Source: Spirochaetales bacterium (GTDB lineage: Bacteria > Spirochaetota > Spirochaetia > SZUA-6 > RPPD01). From it: a stretch of DNA of 64,000 nt. The notes under the pieces are model-generated. The model was not told the DNA's origin. It saw only the letters and a list, made by a program, of their open reading frames with translations, and ran no database searches. Of the stretch, positions 189-39,379 are shown piece by piece (position 1 is the stretch's first letter; every line of letters starts with the position of its first letter). Made by a program: the position numbers and the translations under genes. The stretch lies in NCBI GenBank assembly GCA_016934415.1, contig JAFGSW010000025.1, positions 1 through 64,000 on the forward strand. The letters are read 5' to 3'.

Positions 189-194
189 AAAGCC

Positions 195-290
195 ACCATG
201 GGGTGGCCGACCGGCAGGCAAGAGTCCGCCGGAACGCCTGAGATTATACCCGTTGAACCTGATCTGGATAATGCCAGCGAAGGGACGATA
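195..290 (+). promoter_or_regulatory. TPP (thi-box) riboswitch
   Basis: The conserved thi-box elements are all present. There is a GGGGTG 5' strand at 200-205, a variable P3 hairpin, CTGAGA at 238-243, ACCCGTTGAACCTGATCTGG from 248, and ATAATGCCAGCGAAGGGA ending near 285. This aptamer binds thiamine pyrophosphate and turns down thiamine genes, which fits the four thi genes that follow. No strong intrinsic terminator is visible between it and thiM. Instead CTCCA at 316-320 can pair with TGGAG at 355-359, which overlaps the thiM ribosome binding site. Control by hiding that site is therefore plausible (inference). Confidence 0.93.
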
Positions 291-365
291 TCAACATCGT
301 ATTATAATCTTCATACTCCATGAAACAGGGGGAACCATACCCGGCTTGTTTTTTTGGAGGGTCAC

Positions 366-9581: not shown

Positions 9582-11057
9582 TTACACTTTTTCGCCTAGC
9601 AATGCAATCGCGGCGGAAAGGCGCGCCTCGACCTTGTCCTTTCCCAGGATCAGCATGGACCCCATGAGCGGCGGCGACTTGGTGGTCCCGGTGAGCGCCA
9701 CGCGGAGCGGCATGAGGAGGTCGCCGAGCTTGACGCCCAGCTTCTCGGCGAGGGCCTTGAAATCGGATTCAAGCTCCTCTTCGGACTTCCCCTCGAAGCC
9801 CGCGAGACTCGTGTTGAGAGCCGTGAGGGTCTCGAGCGTCTTTTCGGGCGTGCCTTTCTTGGGCACCAATTCGGCCGGATCCGCAATTGAAACGTCCTCG
9901 AAGAAGAACGACGTCCAGGACGCGCAGTCGGAGAGCAAGGTGAGACGTTCACGGATAAGCGGTACGATGTCCAGCAGGGTCTTCCTTTCCGCCTCCGTCG
10001 GGGGAGAAGCGAAGAGGCCGGCTTGCTGCATGAAAGGCACCAGCCGGTCGCGGAGGTCGGCCGGCTCAAGCTTCCTCATGTACTGGCCGTTGAACCAGTC
10101 GAGCTTTTTGTAATCGAACACCGCGGAAGACTTGGAAAGCTTGTCGAGGGTAAAGAGCTTCTCGAACTCCTCGCGCGAGAAAAACTCCCTCGTGTCGTCG
10201 TACGACCAGCCCAGGAGCGTGACGTAGTTGACGATCGCCTCCGGGAGGTAGCCCTTCTCCCGGAATTCGTCCAGGGTCGTACTTCCGTGACGCTTGGCGA
10301 GTTTGTGCCCGTCCTTCCCCAGGATGAGGGGCGGATGGTAGTACTTGGGCGGTTCCCAGCCGAAGGCCTGGTAAAGATGCAGGTGGATTGGGCCCGAGGA
10401 GAGCCACTCCTGAGATCGGATGACGTGAGTTATTTCCATCAGGTGATCGTCGATGACATTGGCGAGATGATAGGTCGGGAATCCGTCTGATTTGAGGAGC
10501 ACGGGATCGGGGTTGATATCGATATTCGCTTTCTCAATGTCGCCCAGAATCTCGTCGCGAAAGACGGTGACGCTCTCGAGCGGAATCCGCAGACGAATGA
10601 CGGGCTTGAGGCCTTGTTCATCGTACTCCGCCCGTTGCGTTTCGGTGAGATCCCTGCAATGGCGGTCGTAGCCGATAACGGGGAGCTTCTTCTCAGTCTG
10701 CTCCTTGCGGACGGCCTCGAGGCGCTCGGGACTGCAATAACAGCGGTAGGCGTGGCCAGCCGACACGAGCTTCGCGGCGTAATCGCCGTAGACGGCATTG
10801 CGCTCCGACTGGACGTACGGCCCGAACGGGCCGCCGACGTCAGGCCCCTCGTCCCAGGACAGGCCGAGCCAGCGCAAAGTGTCGTAGATGTTTTGGATCG
10901 AACCTTCGGTCGAGCGGCCCTGGTCGGTGTCCTCGATTCTAAGCAGGAACTTCCCTCCCGTGGCCCGGGCGTAGAAATAGTCGAAAAAGGCATTGCGCAG
11001 GTTGCCGATATGCATTTTTCCCGTCGGAGACGGGGCGAAGCGGACACGAACGGTCAT
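9582..11057 (-). CDS. gltX: Glutamate--tRNA ligase
   Basis: Charges tRNA-Glu. The same enzyme may also mischarge tRNA-Gln if the cell uses the transamidation route, which cannot be judged here. The 491-residue class I synthetase starts MTVRVRFAPSPTGKMHIGN, containing the HIGH box, and has KLAKRHGST near residue 253 as its KMSKS box, followed by the helical anticodon-binding domain. An AGAAGGACC ribosome site precedes the ATG. It forms a synthetase group with glyS and tyrS on the same strand. The region upstream of its start holds an inverted repeat element shared with divergent bioY. Confidence 0.95.
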   Translation of the reverse strand: MTVRVRFAPSPTGKMHIGNLRNAFFDYFYARATGGKFLLRIEDTDQGRSTEGSIQNIYDTLRWLGLSWDEGPDVGGPFGPYVQSERNAVYGDYAAKLVSAGHAYRCYCSPERLEAVRKEQTEKKLPVIGYDRHCRDLTETQRAEYDEQGLKPVIRLRIPLESVTVFRDEILGDIEKANIDINPDPVLLKSDGFPTYHLANVIDDHLMEITHVIRSQEWLSSGPIHLHLYQAFGWEPPKYYHPPLILGKDGHKLAKRHGSTTLDEFREKGYLPEAIVNYVTLLGWSYDDTREFFSREEFEKLFTLDKLSKSSAVFDYKKLDWFNGQYMRKLEPADLRDRLVPFMQQAGLFASPPTEAERKTLLDIVPLIRERLTLLSDCASWTSFFFEDVSIADPAELVPKKGTPEKTLETLTALNTSLAGFEGKSEEELESDFKALAEKLGVKLGDLLMPLRVALTGTTKSPPLMGSMLILGKDKVEARLSAAIALLGEKV

Positions 11058-11165: not shown

Positions 11166-11345
11166 GGACACGAAGAGCACCCCTCGGCTCGTTGGAAGCT
11201 TCGCTACGCGACACGCTCGGGGCAGGCCCCGGAAACGAAGAATATGGAGAAAAAAAGAAATCAAAAACGAGAAGCGGCCTAAAGCATCGCATTCCCCTTT
11301 TTCTTTCTCCGTGATCTTCTTCTTTTCTTCGTGGTCTTCGTGTCC
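11166..11345. repeat. Long interrupted inverted repeat (ACACGAAG family) with nested GC-rich repeat
   Basis: The outer ends are GGACACGAAGA (11166) and its complement TCTTCGTGTCC ending at 11345. The inner arms GAAGAA-ATGGAGAAAAAAAG and CTTTTT-CTTTCTCCGTG also pair, so the whole could fold into one long hairpin. The left arm is split after GAGCAC by a second element at about 11180-11235 that begins CCCCTCGG, contains CGCTCGGGGCAGG and ends CCGGAAAC. It lies between divergent gltX and bioY, in a 419-base gap without any gene I would call. Confidence 0.8.
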
Positions 11346-11386
11346 TCTTCATGCAGGTGCGGAAACAGCAAGGTCAAGCGGAAAAG

Positions 11387-11476: not shown

Positions 11477-12055
11477 ATGTTCGCAATGAAAACCTATGCA
11501 GATATCGTTCGTCCCGCCCACAAGGCGAAGGCCCTGGCTTACGACGTTATCCTCATTGTGGGAGCTTCGCTTCTCATATCGCTTTCGAATTTCATCATCC
11601 GTATTCCCATTGCCGGCACCCCGGTCCCGATCACCGGTCAGACCTTCTCGGTACTACTCCTGGCCGCGCTCCTGGGCCCGAAACGCGGGCCGGCCGCGGT
11701 CGTCCTGTACCTGGCTTACGGGATCGCCGGCCTGCCCTTTTATTCGGGCGGCGCAATCGCCGGTCCGACCGGCGGTTATCTCCTGGGGTTCGTTTTCTCA
11801 GCGTTCGTGGTCGGCTTCCTGTGCGAACAGGGCCTTGATCGCCGTTGCCACACCGTAATCGCGGCCATGCTCGTCGGGAACGTCGTTCTCTACGTTCCCG
11901 GCATCATCTGGCTTTCCTTTTACACGCCCCAGAACGCGTTTGTACTCGGCCTCTTCCCCTACGTGCCGGGCGACCTCCTCAAGATCGCTTTGGCGGCGGC
12001 GATTCTGCCCACCGGCTGGAAGTTGATCCGGAAACTCAAGCAAAATCGATCTTAA
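11477..12055 (+). CDS. bioY: BioY, biotin-specific S component of an ECF transporter
   Basis: Membrane protein that captures biotin and passes it to an energy-coupling module. The 192 residues form about six TM helices and carry the BioY signatures RIPIAGTPVPITGQTF near residue 42, LLLAALLGPKRGP and YLAYGIAGLPFYSGG near 68-90, GPTGGYLLGF near 97, and PYVPGDLLKIALA near 162. No EcfA or EcfT genes are adjacent, so it would act alone or with a shared module encoded elsewhere. AAGGGGG lies eight bases before the ATG. A palindrome over the promoter suggests repression. A terminator follows inside the next repeat element. Confidence 0.93.
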   Translation: MFAMKTYADIVRPAHKAKALAYDVILIVGASLLISLSNFIIRIPIAGTPVPITGQTFSVLLLAALLGPKRGPAAVVLYLAYGIAGLPFYSGGAIAGPTGGYLLGFVFSAFVVGFLCEQGLDRRCHTVIAAMLVGNVVLYVPGIIWLSFYTPQNAFVLGLFPYVPGDLLKIALAAAILPTGWKLIRKLKQNRS

Positions 12056-13503: not shown

Positions 13504-13632
13504 ATCTGGCACCTCAATGAGTGTATCGGTATCGGGAATCAAGAGTACGGGTAATTAATTCGAAAATCAAGGGGGTGTTTGGTTGCAAGCTCTCACCTCT
13601 TGATCTATAGTGAAAGAGGAGTCAAGAGAGTG

Positions 13633-15321
13633 ATGTGGGGCGCGATTCCTTCCATGAAAAAACGCGTGATCGCCCGCCGGTCGGGGGAGATCATTTCCGT
13701 GCTCTTCAAGTACGGGTTTGCCGAGCTCTTAAACCGGTTGCGGGCCCATTCCCGCCTTCCCTTCCGTTTCCGAAAGAAGGCGCGCGAGCAGGTCAGGGAA
13801 AACATCGACAAGCCGTTCGCCGTCCGTTTGCGCCTCGTCTGCGAGGAACTCGGCACGACCTTCATCAAGTTCGGGCAGATGCTTTCCATGCGTCCCGATA
13901 TTCTCCCGAAAAACGTCATCCTCGAGCTGGAAAAGCTCCAGGACCAGGTTCCTCCGTTCGACCTGAAGACTGTCCGGGAGACGATCGGGATCCAATTCGG
14001 GAAGCCGTTTACGGAGGTGTTCCGCTCCTTTGAGGAGGCCCCCGAGGCCGCCGCCTCCATCGCGCAGGTGCATCGGGCGACGCTTCTCTCGGGTGAAGAG
14101 GCGGCCGTGAAAATACAGCGGCCGGGCGTCCGCAATTTGGTGGCCGTCGACCTGGAGATACTTTCCCACCTCGCCCAACTGGCCGAACGCCACATTCCCG
14201 AGCTTTCGCTCTTCAATCCCGGGGCCGTGGTGGCGGAGTTCGCGGCCAACATCCAGCACGAGCTCGATTTTCTCAAAGAGGCGCGGAACATCGAGAGCTT
14301 CCGTAAGAATTTCATGAACGACCCGACCGTGCACATTCCGACGGTCTACTGGGATTACTGCACGGAAAAAGTGATCTGCATGGAATTTATCCACGGCATC
14401 AAGATCTCGGAGTTGGACACGCTCAAGCGGACGGACTGCGACCTGCCGCTCATCGCCCGTCGCGGGCTGGACGTAGTATTCAAGCAGATCTTCCGGGACG
14501 GTTTTTTCCACGCCGATCCGCACTCGGGCAACCTCTTCATCCTCCCCGGCAATATCATCGTGCCCATCGACTTCGGGCAGGTCGGTTTCGTGAGCGAGTT
14601 CCTGCGGGAGCGTTTAGGCCGCGCCCTGGCCGCCTTCGTCAATCGGGACGCCCGCTCGCTCGTCAAGGTGCTCCACGACCTGGAGCTCATCGAGGACGGA
14701 ACCGTCACCCGTGAGCTCACCTTCGACCTCGAGCACCTTATCAATTACTACCATGACATTTCACTCGCCCAGCTCAACTTGGGCACGGTCATCCTCGAGC
14801 TCATCGACCTCATCCGACGGCACCGCATGCGAATCCCGGTTGACATGATCCTCCTCGGGAAGGCGGTGGCCACCATGGAGGCGCTCGGCAAGGAGCTCGA
14901 TCCAAGCATCGACATAGGCGAAGTGGCCGGGCCGTACGTCCGGAAACTCGTGCTTTCCTCCGTCGATCCTTTAAAAACAACGAAGGAAATCGGCCGGTTC
15001 CTTTCCGACTCCCACGACCTGTTCCGGACCCTGCCGGACGACGCGTCGGCTATTCTGAAAAAAATGCGGAACGATCGTTTGAAAATCAAATTCGAGCATG
15101 CCGGGCTGGATCCGTACGTGAAGGATCTCGACAAAGTGGGAAACAGACTCTCGGCGAGCGTCATCATCGCCGCTTTTCTCATCGGCTCTTCGCTCATCAC
15201 CTACGTGAGCAAGGGCCCGACGATTCTCGGCATTCCCGTCATCGGCTTCGTCGGCTACACCATAGCCGGCCTGCTCGGCATTTGGCTCATCATCGGCATC
15301 ATCCGCTCGGGCAGACTATAG
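13633..15321 (+). CDS. ABC1/UbiB-family atypical protein kinase-like protein
   Basis: A member of the family that supports ubiquinone or other isoprenoid lipid metabolism, probably on the inner membrane. The KxGQ-type motif TTFIKFGQMLSMRPDILP lies near residue 75 and the alanine-rich loop PEAAASIAQVHRA near 140. These are followed by the nucleotide lysine in AAVKIQRPGV, FFHADPHSGNLFI near 295 and the metal Asp in VPIDFGQVGF near 310. Two hydrophobic helices end the protein. AGGAG lies 11 bases before the ATG used here, and a GTG one codon earlier is equally possible. No ubiquinone genes are nearby, so the lipid it serves is unknown. Confidence 0.85.
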   Translation: MWGAIPSMKKRVIARRSGEIISVLFKYGFAELLNRLRAHSRLPFRFRKKAREQVRENIDKPFAVRLRLVCEELGTTFIKFGQMLSMRPDILPKNVILELEKLQDQVPPFDLKTVRETIGIQFGKPFTEVFRSFEEAPEAAASIAQVHRATLLSGEEAAVKIQRPGVRNLVAVDLEILSHLAQLAERHIPELSLFNPGAVVAEFAANIQHELDFLKEARNIESFRKNFMNDPTVHIPTVYWDYCTEKVICMEFIHGIKISELDTLKRTDCDLPLIARRGLDVVFKQIFRDGFFHADPHSGNLFILPGNIIVPIDFGQVGFVSEFLRERLGRALAAFVNRDARSLVKVLHDLELIEDGTVTRELTFDLEHLINYYHDISLAQLNLGTVILELIDLIRRHRMRIPVDMILLGKAVATMEALGKELDPSIDIGEVAGPYVRKLVLSSVDPLKTTKEIGRFLSDSHDLFRTLPDDASAILKKMRNDRLKIKFEHAGLDPYVKDLDKVGNRLSASVIIAAFLIGSSLITYVSKGPTILGIPVIGFVGYTIAGLLGIWLIIGIIRSGRL

Positions 15322-15382: not shown

Positions 15383-15537
15383 GGGCACGAAGAGGAAGAA
15401 GTACACGAGGCAAGAGAAAAAAGGAAAATATTCAACTCAAGCCGTCTTCATTTTCCCTGTTTTTTCCTTCGTGTTCTTCGACTGCTTCGGGTTCGGAGCC
15501 TGCCCCGAGCGTAGCCAAGGGGTGTCCTCTTTTCTCC
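15383..15537. repeat. Interrupted inverted repeat (ACACGAAG family) with nested GC-rich repeat
   Basis: The left arm begins GGCACGAAGAGGAAG, with ACACGAGG further in. The right arm reads CCTTCGTGTTCTTCG and, after an interruption, GTGTCC. The interruption (about 15479-15532) is the GC-rich second repeat, which on the minus strand begins CCCCTTGGCTACGCTCGGGG. It thus sits directly inside the GGACAC end, as in the copy near 11.2 kb but in the opposite arm. It fills the 253-base gap between two convergent genes and ends 38 bases from the stop of the one to its right. Confidence 0.75.
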
Positions 15538-15574: not shown

Positions 15575-17008
15575 TCAAAGCCCGCCGGCCGCTCTCTGTG
15601 GCCGGCTCAGGTCCCGGTACACGACGAGCATTTTGCGCACCCCGATGCCCGCCATCACCTCGTCGACGCGGAAGAACCGGTTGCGGCCGATCATGCTCAC
15701 TCCGTCGAGGTAGCGCAATTCATTGGCCTTCCATTCGCCCGGGATGGCGTCATAGACGATAAAGTATTTCCGGTCCAGGCTGTAGCCCTTGATGAGGAGG
15801 TAATGGCCGGTGGCGTCCGGGTAATAGCGGTCGAAAAAATCCGTCGTTTTGTCGCGGACCGTGTGGCGGATGGCTCCGCAGTTGAAGCTGACGATGACGA
15901 GCCCGCCGCGGTCGATGGCGCCGAAGACGTCGGCGGCGTCCGTGAGCGGAAGGACGGCGGACGGCACGGAGTGGCGGACGAGGTTGTCGAGCAGGTTGTT
16001 GTGGTCCACGGCGCCGTTCGAGTACGGCATGCCTATTTCCGCCCGGATCGCCTCGACCGTGAAGTCCTTGCCGATTGACCATTTGATGGCCGAGCCGATG
16101 GCGGCCGGGCCGCAATTGCCGTACATGCCGGTGTCGAACTGCGTCTTGTACCAATCGTATTCCGGCTCGGCGGAGAGCCGCGCCGGCAGCGGACTCACGA
16201 AGAGATAGAACTCAAAAACACCGCCGTCTTTTTCGAGACGGACGCGGGAAAAACCGGAATGCCGGGCAACGAGCCTGTTTGTAGCGAAATACTCGAGAAG
16301 CGCCGGGGATTGGTCGATCTTTCCGGTTTTGTCGAAGTCGATCGCGGCGCCGTCGGGACCCCAGAGCCGGCCCGCAACGTCAACCAGGTCTCCCACCCGA
16401 TTGACCGTCATGTAAGGCAGGCCCGAATACTCGGCGATCAGGTCGGTGACATCGATATCAAGGGTGTTGGAAGACGCGTACCGGCCCGCGCCGTCGACGG
16501 TGACGAGGCGCACCCGGTAGTGTCCGGGACGGACGTAGAAGGCGGTGGGTTTGGCCTTGAAGCTGAAGCGGTTGTTCCCCAGGTCCCAGACGAAGCGGAG
16601 ACCCGAGTCGGCGAAGGCGAAATCCGAGGTCAGGGGTGCGGCGTGCGGAGCCGGCCCGCGAGTCGCGTCGGTGTGGATGGTCACCGGGGACCGGGAGCGG
16701 TCGGTCGTTTCGACGTAGACGGGGATTTTCAGGACCGTTCCCTCGGCCAGCGGCGTTTCACCGTGAAGACGGTTTTCTATGACGAGATCGTAGAACGGAA
16801 TTCCGAGACGGCGCGCGACGTCGTAGATCGTCTCCCCGTTCAAGACCGCGCAGGTGGCGGGCGGATTGAAGTTCGTCCGCGTCGTGTACTCGCCTTCCAG
16901 GCTCCCGGTCGGAGGCCTGTCGAACGGGTCCGAGAAGACCGCGGTCAGGAAGACGACGCTCGCGGCCAGCGTGAAAATTCCTAGGATGATAAAAATACGC
17001 TTTTTCAT
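15575..17008 (-). CDS. Exported LysM-like protein with C39-like peptidase domain
   Basis: Probably a secreted or membrane-anchored cysteine peptidase or transglutaminase-like enzyme of the periplasm. The N-terminal hydrophobic segment IFIILGIFTLAASVVFLTAVF is a signal or anchor. A LysM-like segment (GETIYDVARRLGIPF...GTVLKIPVY) lies near residues 55-95 and a PKD-like beta domain near 135-195. The last third carries YGNCGPAAIGSAIKWSIG with the candidate catalytic Cys, ATGHYLLIKGYS with His, and FIVYDAIPGEW with Asp, which is the Peptidase_C39_2 order. I chose MKKRIFII at 17008 because GGGGA precedes it. LysM suggests peptidoglycan contact. The substrate is unknown. Confidence 0.7.
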   Translation of the reverse strand: MKKRIFIILGIFTLAASVVFLTAVFSDPFDRPPTGSLEGEYTTRTNFNPPATCAVLNGETIYDVARRLGIPFYDLVIENRLHGETPLAEGTVLKIPVYVETTDRSRSPVTIHTDATRGPAPHAAPLTSDFAFADSGLRFVWDLGNNRFSFKAKPTAFYVRPGHYRVRLVTVDGAGRYASSNTLDIDVTDLIAEYSGLPYMTVNRVGDLVDVAGRLWGPDGAAIDFDKTGKIDQSPALLEYFATNRLVARHSGFSRVRLEKDGGVFEFYLFVSPLPARLSAEPEYDWYKTQFDTGMYGNCGPAAIGSAIKWSIGKDFTVEAIRAEIGMPYSNGAVDHNNLLDNLVRHSVPSAVLPLTDAADVFGAIDRGGLVIVSFNCGAIRHTVRDKTTDFFDRYYPDATGHYLLIKGYSLDRKYFIVYDAIPGEWKANELRYLDGVSMIGRNRFFRVDEVMAGIGVRKMLVVYRDLSRPQRAAGGL

Positions 17009-17261
17009 GAATCCCCGTGTCTGCATAAAGATAATCCGAATCGGGAGGACGACCGGCGGCGACGGGACGGCGACGCTTTCGTATCCACGTCCGAAGGAAC
17101 AAAATCGCTGCTTATCGCTATTAAAAATACATGATATCGGTTGACAATGGCAAGTGGTCGAGCGCGCGGCGCACGCTGTTTCGGGAAACGTCGCCTTTGC
17201 CGCGAGCGGTTTTTTTCGTATTTTGATATCAGCAAAAATCTATTGTGGATTGGAGGCGGCT

Positions 17262-22860: not shown

Positions 22861-24759
22861 ATGAACGATTTTCTGCCGATCTCAATAGACGATATGAATC
22901 GCCGCGGCTGGGACGAGCTCGATTTCGTGATGGTGACCGGGGACGCGTACGTCGACCATCCATCCTTCGGCGCCGCCGTCATTTCGCGTATCCTCGACAA
23001 ACACGATTATCGGGTTGGCGTGATCGCCCAGCCGGACTGGACGGGCGCCGCCGCATTCCGTAAACTCGGCCGGCCCCGACTCGGTTTCCTCGTCACCGCC
23101 GGCAACATCGATTCGATGGTCAACAATTACACCGCCGCAAAAAAACGCAGGAGCGACGACATATACGCCCCGGGACGACGGGGGGGGCTCCGCCCTGACC
23201 GGGCCGCCATCAGCTACGCCATCCGAGTGCGCGAGGCGTACGGCCGCATACCGATCATTCTCGGAGGTCTCGAAGCCTCCCTGCGCCGATTCGCCCATTT
23301 CGATTACTGGCAGGAAAAGGTGAGGCGCTCGCTTCTCATCGATTCCGGGGCGGATATCATCGTTTACGGCATGGGCGAACGCGCGATGCTCGAGATCGCG
23401 GCCGCGCTCGCCGCGGATCGGCCGGTAGCCGGAATCAGCGAAGTGCCCGGAACGGTCTACCGGACGAAAGAGCTGCCATCGGACGTGGACTCCGTCCGGT
23501 TGCCTTCGTTTGTAAGAGTCGAGTCCGACGCGCGCGCTTTCGCCGAGAGTTTCCTTATCCAATATCGAAACTCAGACGCGCATTCGGGACGGATCCTCAT
23601 CGAGGAATACGATGATTGTCTTATCGTGCAGAACCCGCCTTCCCCGCCGCTCGAGCCGCGCGAGCTTGACGAAGTAAACGAGCTCCCATACGCACGCGCA
23701 GCCCATCCGGTCTACGAGGCTGCGGGGGGAGTACGCGCGATAGAGGAAGTGCGCTTCAGTCTGGTCTCCAGCCGCGGATGCTTCGGCAATTGCAGCTTCT
23801 GTTCACTTACCTTCCACCAGGGGAGGACGGTGCAGGCGCGGACTCCTGAGTCCCTGGTGCGGGAGGCGGTCGAGCTTACCAGACTCCCCGATTTCAAGGG
23901 ATATATCCACGACGTGGGCGGTCCGACCGCCGATTTCTTCGGCCCGGCCTGCGCGCGCCAAACGCGCGGTTCGGCGTGTTCCGACCGCGAGTGCCTTTTC
24001 CCTTCGCCTTGCCCCAAACTCAATACCGATCATTCGCGATACCTCGAGCTCCTTCGTCGTCTCCGCTCCCTTCCCGGCGTGAAAAAGGTGTTCATCCGCT
24101 CCGGTCTGCGCTTCGATTTCATTCTCGCGGATCAAAGCGGGGAATTCTTCACAGAGCTCGTGGAGCACCACGTGAGCGGGCAACTCAAGGTGGCCCCCGA
24201 GCACGTGTGCGACGAGGTGCTGACGCTCATGCGCAAGCCGCCGCACCGTGTCTACCTCACATTCAAAAAAAAATTCGACGCGCTCAACCGCAAGCTCGGG
24301 AAAAAGCAGTTCCTCCTCCCCTATTTCATTTCGAGTCACCCGGGCTCCACCCTCGCCCACGCCGTGGCACTCGCCTGCTTTTTCCGCGACCACCGATTCG
24401 CGCCCGAACAGGTCCAGGATTTTTACCCCACGCCCGGAACTCTCTCCACGTGCATGTATCACACGGGGCTTGATCCCTTTACCATGAGGCCCTTATGCGT
24501 CGCCAAAAGCAGACATGAGAAAGCCCTGCAACGCGCCCTTCTCCAGTACCGCAATCCGAAAAACCGCAGGCTTGTCGAAGAGGCGTTGCGCCGGGCCGGC
24601 CGGCCGGATCTCATTGGTTTCGGGCCCCAGTGCCTGATTCAGCCTCTCCGCGGGGAATCCTCTGAAGCCTTCCGTTCCGAAAACACTCGTTCGTTGAAGT
24701 GGACACGAAACGCACGAAGAAAGAAAAAGAACACGAAGAGAAGAAGGAAAAAAAACTAA
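22861..24759 (+). CDS. YgiQ-family radical SAM protein with a repeat-derived C-terminal tail
   Basis: A radical SAM enzyme of the YgiQ (UPF0313) family whose reaction is unknown. The 632 residues start MNDFLPISIDDMNRRGWDELDF, with the N-terminal cobalamin-like domain and FGAAVISRILDKHDYRVGVIAQPDW. The cluster motif CFGNCSFCS lies near residue 310, followed by the family's QVQDFYPTPGTLSTCMYHTG near 520. The ribosome site is poor. The last 19 residues (WTRNARRKKKNTKRRRKKN) are encoded by the left arm of an intergenic inverted repeat, so the original stop codon has probably been lost or displaced and the protein carries a strongly basic foreign tail. Confidence 0.9.
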   Translation: MNDFLPISIDDMNRRGWDELDFVMVTGDAYVDHPSFGAAVISRILDKHDYRVGVIAQPDWTGAAAFRKLGRPRLGFLVTAGNIDSMVNNYTAAKKRRSDDIYAPGRRGGLRPDRAAISYAIRVREAYGRIPIILGGLEASLRRFAHFDYWQEKVRRSLLIDSGADIIVYGMGERAMLEIAAALAADRPVAGISEVPGTVYRTKELPSDVDSVRLPSFVRVESDARAFAESFLIQYRNSDAHSGRILIEEYDDCLIVQNPPSPPLEPRELDEVNELPYARAAHPVYEAAGGVRAIEEVRFSLVSSRGCFGNCSFCSLTFHQGRTVQARTPESLVREAVELTRLPDFKGYIHDVGGPTADFFGPACARQTRGSACSDRECLFPSPCPKLNTDHSRYLELLRRLRSLPGVKKVFIRSGLRFDFILADQSGEFFTELVEHHVSGQLKVAPEHVCDEVLTLMRKPPHRVYLTFKKKFDALNRKLGKKQFLLPYFISSHPGSTLAHAVALACFFRDHRFAPEQVQDFYPTPGTLSTCMYHTGLDPFTMRPLCVAKSRHEKALQRALLQYRNPKNRRLVEEALRRAGRPDLIGFGPQCLIQPLRGESSEAFRSENTRSLKWTRNARRKKKNTKRRRKKN

Positions 24760-24835
24760 GGAAATCTTCAATATTTCCTGACTTTTTTTTATTTTTTCTT
24801 CGTGATCTTCGGTTTTCTTCGTGAACTTCGTGTCC
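24701..24835. repeat. Long inverted repeat (ACACGAAG family) overlapping the ygiQ-like 3' end
   Basis: The left arm runs GGACACGAAACGCACGAAGA, then AAGAACACGAAGAGAAG. The right arm ends CTTCGTGAACTTCGTGTCC at 24835 after ATTTTTTCTTCGTGATC. The arms are built from the same word, ACACGAAGA or TCACGAAGA, with A-rich spacers, and would fold into a hairpin of about 55 imperfect pairs. It sits across the stop codon of the radical SAM gene and before the FHA gene. Confidence 0.85.
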
Positions 24836-30383: not shown

Positions 30384-30676
30384 GGACACGGAGAACACGG
30401 AGAAAACGAAGCACACGGAGGGGGAGGAAGGATTTATAAGGAAACCAGGAAACGAGGAGAAGGAAGGAAAAAAACCACGGATGATGAAAGAAAAAAGGGA
30501 GTAGAACTTTCACGGAGAGTAGTCGAGGTGAACGGCGACAAGATGTTTGATTACACATATTCTATTGTTGAATCGCTTATTCTTTACCTCGTACGTCCTC
30601 CGCCTTTCCTTTCCCGTTTTTCTTCATTCCTGGGTTCCTGGTTTCCTCATTTTTCCTTCCTTACTTCTCCGTGTCC
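30384..30676. repeat. Long inverted repeat (ACACGGAG plus AAACCAGGAA) before the miaA stop
   Basis: The left arm reads GGACACGGAGAACACGGAG, then GGAAACCAGGAAACGAGG. The right arm reads CCTGGTTTCCTCATTTTTCC and ends CTTCTCCGTGTCC at 30676, four bases before the miaA stop codon. It combines the ACACGGAG word with the CCAGGAA word found at 12 kb. About 110 unpaired bases separate the inner arms. This is most of the 544-base gap between flgH and miaA. I see no convincing gene there. Confidence 0.8.
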
Positions 30677-39268: not shown

Positions 39269-39379
39269 GGACACGGAGATCACCCCTCGGCGGAGTTTTT
39301 CCCGAGTCCTTCGGCAAGCTCACAACAAGCTCCGTCGAGGGGCTCGGGGTAGACTCCGGAAACGGAGCGCTCCGTGTCC
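39269..39379. repeat. Short inverted repeat (ACACGGAG) almost filled by a nested GC-rich repeat
   Basis: The outer ends are GGACACGGAGATCAC at 39269 and its partner GCTCCGTGTCC ending at 39379. Between them lies a GC-rich element (about 39284-39361) that begins CCCTCGGCGGAG, contains GTCGAGGGGCTCGGGG and ends ACTCCGGAAAC, with its own inverted structure. It sits in the 339-base gap between mcsA and a permease gene, 18 bases from the permease stop. Nothing else is recognisable in the gap. Confidence 0.75.

Follow-up and report, generated by a model that had tools for sequence, protein, structure and literature searches.

A short REP-like module that probably inserts in one orientation after CAC within palindromic repeats of a Spirochaetales genome

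The window (the whole 64,000-nt stretch of DNA that was analysed) carries several inverted-repeat elements, and in one of them, at 11.2 kb, an arm is broken by a GC-rich sequence, here called module U. This raises the question of which repeat lies inside which: whether U is part of the outer element or a separate unit that enters it at a fixed word, and by what kind of reaction. Element 1 is located between two divergent genes, gltX-like (9582-11057, minus strand) and bioY-like (11477-12055, plus strand), both named from reading their translations, and its folding beats that of 200 shuffles (z -3.45). One arm reads GGACACGAAGAGCAC at 11166-11180, followed by the insert CCCTCGGCTCG...CGCTCGGGGCAGGCCCCGGAAAC at 11181-11236 and by the host word GAAGAA from 11237, while across 20 nt the opposite arm (11331-11350) shows 85% complementarity to it. 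The features of the window are the following:

11166..11345, plus strand: outer inverted-repeat element 1 (GGACACGAAG...CTTCGTGTCC)
11178..11180, plus strand: second CAC of the element 1 arm, the target word at the 5' junction
11181..11236, plus strand: module U of element 1, 56 nt, comprising the A half CCCTCGGC (11181-11188), a variable filler (11189-11214), the B half GCTCGGGGCAGGCCCCG (11215-11231) and a tail up to AAC (11234-11236)
11327..11345, minus strand: opposite arm of element 1, GGACACGAAGACCACGAAG, uninterrupted, an internal unoccupied comparison
15383..15527, minus strand: outer element 2, with ends GGACAC (15522-15527) and degenerate GGGCAC (15383-15388), between convergent frames 13579-15321 (plus) and 15575-17026 (minus)
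15489..15521, minus strand: short, 33-nt form of U (CCCTTGGCTACGCTCGGGGCAGGCTCC...), after the first CAC of element 2
24701..24835, plus strand: unoccupied outer element
30384..30676, plus strand: longer outer element free of U, or else a pair of end words belonging to a degenerate element
39269..39379, plus strand: outer element 3, minimal, which with U removed reads GGACACGGAGATCAC GGAGCG CTCCGTGTCC
39284..39363, plus strand: 80-nt, self-nested form of U, after the second CAC of element 3

The preliminary description had reported an arm at 11.2 kb interrupted after CAC by a GC-rich insert, the same insert after the same CAC at 39.3 kb, and another immediately within the GGACAC end at 15.5 kb, in the other arm of that element; all three are borne out, the second starting at 39284 and the third lying on the minus strand. 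Rfam gave no match at the U or outer-element loci; elsewhere in the window, a TPP riboswitch (RF00059) was located at 189-302 (plus strand). The unoccupied element at 24701-24835 overlaps the 3' end of the frame 22861-24759 (plus strand), and may provide its C-terminus and stop.

Both repeats are abundant in this genome, a draft of 102 contigs. With at most one mismatch, the outer word GGACACGRAGNNCACGRAG has 77 matches genome-wide against none for the backwards pattern, and between 0 and 3 per genome across 60 relatives; with at most three mismatches, the U pattern CCCTCGRCTNCGCTCGGGGCAGGCTCCG has 23 matches against none backwards, and none in those relatives. Pairs of the hexamers GGACAC...GTGTCC alone are not enriched over mononucleotide shuffles (27 against 36, with 3 in the reversed sequence), and for this reason the evidence rests on the longer words. 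In non-overlapping stretches amounting to 1.63 Mb of the 4.06 Mb genome, whose contigs were partly picked for U matches, U is present at 30 of 93 outer-element ends, and no interrupted end was found in the reversed sequence. Thus, the GC-rich part is missing from about two thirds of the ends, answering the earlier concern that it might belong to the outer element in every copy. The first CAC of GGACAC precedes U at 22 ends and the second, nine bases inward, at the other 8. None of 16 elements carries U in both arms, but the probability of this by chance, calculated by hand from the counts, is 0.31, so that the result is uninformative.

U is also found in a second host family:

L064, L081, L175, L196, L197 and L213 (same genome): second host family, U at the same word

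These are long inverted repeats, purine-rich and containing CAC (GAACCACGGAT...; GGGAACCACGGATGACACGGAT...), of which 36 copies are unoccupied and 11 carry U at the equivalent CAC^GGAT, with zero for both in the reversed sequence. Taking into account that most outer ends are free of U and that it occupies CAC^GGAT in this unrelated family, U does not belong to the outer element.

Both sides of U are fixed across copies. The 5' junction is CAC^CC(C/T)TCG and the 3' junction CTCC-NNN-(C/A)AC^G. Of 57 catalogued copies, the CACGRAG family accounts for 38 and the GAACCACGGAT family for 9, with 10 others; the triplet 5' of U in these copies is CAC or CGC, the background of CAC being 1.1% of sample positions. 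At the other side, ACG(A/G) follows CTCC by 4 nt in 28 copies and by other offsets (0-8) in 2. Exact excision of U from nine elements restores the register of the arm, the match to the opposite arm reaching 0.53 at offset 0 but only 0.26-0.45 when the offset is shifted elsewhere between -8 and +8. The short target duplication that had been suggested as a check amounts at most to the 3-nt (C/A)AC, which could represent either the last bases of U or a duplicate of the target, two readings that are inseparable here. Beyond CAC/(C/A)AC no duplication was detected, since six flanking columns are jointly no better matched than shuffled pairs; column -6, taken alone, is better matched. The idea that one element targets the other thus holds for the specific, fixed site and has to be modified for the target: as CAC followed by GRAG or GGAT is common to at least two unrelated palindromic host families, the target of U is this short word and not one particular element.

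The plan of U consists of an A half, CC(C/T)TCG(A/G)C, a variable filler, a B half, GCTC(A/G)GGGCAGGCTCC, three free positions and (C/A)AC, with overall lengths of 33, 56-57 or 80 nt. The filler of the 33-nt form is about 3 nt. Some longer forms have a hairpin filler, for example around GCATACATGC. In the 57-nt form the filler is another U, in reverse orientation and of an ATAAA subtype that differs slightly, and in the 80-nt form (at 39284 and also at L193) the reverse U inside is itself broken by a further U-like piece. A nesting series is thus observed, from palindromic host to U, reverse U and further U. The short form folds no better than shuffles (z +1.06, 171 of 200 shuffles folding equally well), and strong folding (z -4.94) is confined to the form of U that has GCATACATGC in its filler. 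By inspection, U has no terminal inverted repeats, its A and B ends not being inverted copies.

From this evidence it is proposed that U is probably a short, asymmetric, non-autonomous, REP-like mobile module that has inserted many times, in one orientation, 3' of CAC. It would move as a discrete unit, entering immediately 3' of CAC in the CAC^GRAG or CAC^GGAT arm words of the two palindromic families. U has no inverted ends, a single orientation, a position 3' of a triplet, a target-like end and no long duplication, the pattern that single-strand HUH-type transposition would leave, judging from IS200/IS605 (PMC6006769). The best model would be such a single-strand HUH (Y1)-type reaction, in which an element that has no terminal inverted repeats is joined to the 3' side of a short word, no long target duplication arises and the element ends in a sequence resembling the target ((C/A)AC against CAC). 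An enzymatic step of this type is tentatively put forward as a possibility. No clean orthologous empty site was found for this genome, the outer family and U being nearly absent from the 60 relatives. This weighs against the proposal, as do the ragged ortholog pairs in other genomes, the weak folding of short U, the shortcomings of the candidate enzyme and the flanking words other than CAC in other phyla.

As to the enzyme, one candidate was considered:

L101:1354-1830, minus strand: REP-associated tyrosine transposase-like gene (RAYT-type), beside a mutM-like gene (L101:1912-2857)

This is the sole Y1 gene found in the draft genome; it is of the REP-associated type, with a score under the curated cut-off, and it has the motif DDQIH where six aligned relatives have NHxH, so that the first HUH histidine is missing. 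Copies of GGGGACGGAGC and GCTCCGTCCCC occur in and around both genes, and one GGGGACGGAGC hairpin near the Y1 gene contains the B half of U (15 of 17 bases; about 0.002 expected for an unrelated match), yet only that half: no complete U was found beside the gene. The RAYT as cognate enzyme of U was consequently rejected, owing to the missing histidine and to the lack of a complete adjoining U, and L101 does not present the intact RAYT gene flanked by cognate repeats of a REPtron, although a draft may lack a further copy. In six other genomes that carry U, the Y1 loci contain no complete U either, and no Y1 gene was detected in three of nine other U-bearing drafts, including the richest in U.

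Since the Y1 gene looks damaged and none was detected in those three drafts, a process with no dedicated enzyme has to be taken as a serious rival. While hairpin-forming DNA is being replicated, U would pass from one repeat arm to another by gene conversion or a switch of template, at short words that the arms have in common (CAC, GGAG/CTCC). Palindromic sequences stall replication, and the hosts of U are palindromic; the self-nested A-B'-A'-B forms resemble fold-back products, the U of Prevotellaceae stands where the GGAG word of the host would be, and the failed RAYT association points the same way. However, this process does not readily account for a single orientation and a single-base register at both junctions across two host families, and the reverse U on the inside belongs to the separate ATAAA subtype instead of copying the outer one. 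We regard it as unlikely, though worth keeping in mind.

Independent entry of U would also be mimicked by a few ancestral insertions, after which the occupied arm was amplified or gene-converted as a composite repeat. U variants are indeed partly sorted by host, family 1 having CCCTCG...CTCGGGG...CTCCG and family 2 CCTTCG...CTCAGGG...CTCCT, and two copies on the contig, at 11.2 kb and 123.4 kb, have the same filler and site. Yet occupied arms resemble each other no more closely in the host DNA adjacent to U (0.43) than arms lacking U do (0.55; selection favours the latter), which gives no indication that a single composite was amplified, and U stands at two different CACs in many internal forms. 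Amplification of a composite is accordingly quite improbable. Taken together, the empty ends, the second host family and the lack of extra likeness among occupied arms argue that U repeatedly entered pre-existing arms.

That U might instead be a dispensable component of the outer element, on the pattern of BOX and other modular repeats, would fit a third of the outer ends carrying it at a fixed place, but its occurrence in an unrelated second family largely refutes the idea, and its two positions in the arm and its presence in other phyla without the outer family leave it very little probability. A chance resemblance or an assembly artefact, conceivable in a draft of so many contigs, is refuted by dozens of copies on many contigs with zero in the reversed controls.

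The reading of U as a mobile module has precedents among known systems. The insertion of REPs into longer palindromes was already on record in 2013, the cases being GTAG-15 dimers in A. variabilis, GTAG-23 in T. roseum, for which hundreds of empty targets are known, and CGTC-1 in H. neapolitanus (PMC3733652, section 7); CGTC REPs are said to have no dedicated transposase (PMC3733652). These share with U the short, high-copy repeat within a longer palindrome and, in T. roseum, the empty targets, but their sequences differ, and U stands in one arm at CAC^GR(A), uses two host families, nests in itself and has no stable hairpin in its short form. As in REP/RAYT (TnpA-REP) and TIRYT systems (PMC2817692, PMC6006769, PMC3733652), U is a non-autonomous, short, high-copy repeat in a genome with a RAYT-like gene; the gene lacks the first HUH histidine and, as in the TIRYT class, has repeats on its flanks, here GGGGACGGAGC. 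However, no complete U adjoins that gene, short U is not the stable stem-loop of 20-40 nt typical of REPs, and in place of a GTAG/CGTC foot U ends in CC(C/T)TCG and CTCC-NNN-(C/A)AC.

IS200/IS605 elements and PATEs (PMC7290912, PMC3119063) are likewise devoid of terminal inverted repeats, lie 3' of a short word with no long duplication and have an end resembling the target word; for U these words are CAC^ at the 5' side and (C/A)AC^ at the 3' side, a resemblance in mode that is not proof of membership. U is much shorter, no transposase or full-length parent was found for it, and any guide-sequence pairing on its part would be hypothetical. Classical MITEs, derived from DDE transposases, are also short, dispersed and non-coding, but U has no terminal inverted repeats and a duplication of at most 3 nt; it is the outer elements that have inverted-repeat ends. 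The sequence words returned nothing relevant in open-access full-text literature, although they may have been described elsewhere. Thus, REPs within palindromes were already known, and what appears to be new, as far as could be found, is the rule for the site, the use of another host family and the occurrence of U in several phyla.

The interest of this system is that the entry of one short bacterial repeat into another follows a rule that can be counted: the site is CAC^GR(A), the orientation is single and the ends are fixed. One genome offers targets by the dozen, both filled and empty; therefore, the question of how CGTC-type and other RAYT-less repeats move can be put to a direct test. A further suggestion is that smaller repeats find safe landing sites in palindromic ones.

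In other species, the exact U 28-mer (with a few positions degenerate) occurs in 49 genome stretches, from Acidobacteria, Gemmatimonadetes, Planctomycetota, Nitrospinota, Prevotellaceae and Proteobacteria, mostly embedded in dispersed repeats of other kinds. GGACAC again stands before it in one acidobacterium, with CACAAAGG after it. The flanking word in other phyla is often not CAC, and the CAC-anchored U pattern matches only three other genomes of 296 in the wider phylum. It is a rather doubtful, more speculative extension that U represents a class of miniature modules common to many phyla and moved by some non-RAYT activity, which would recognise CAC^GR(A) in palindromic arms; the modules would therefore parasitise other miniature repeats and themselves, and not genes.

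Related Nitrospinota-like genomes (L134 against L172, L137 against L163) differ in their intergenic regions by whole blocks of nested repeats, U included; these orthologous pairs are ragged, multi-repeat blocks, and no clean single insertion was found among them. In other genomes (L268-L272 and L157) U occurs head to tail, with CCTTCGACTTCGCTCAGGGCAGGCT repeated, which suggests a unit of about 25 nt that is also able to form tandem runs.
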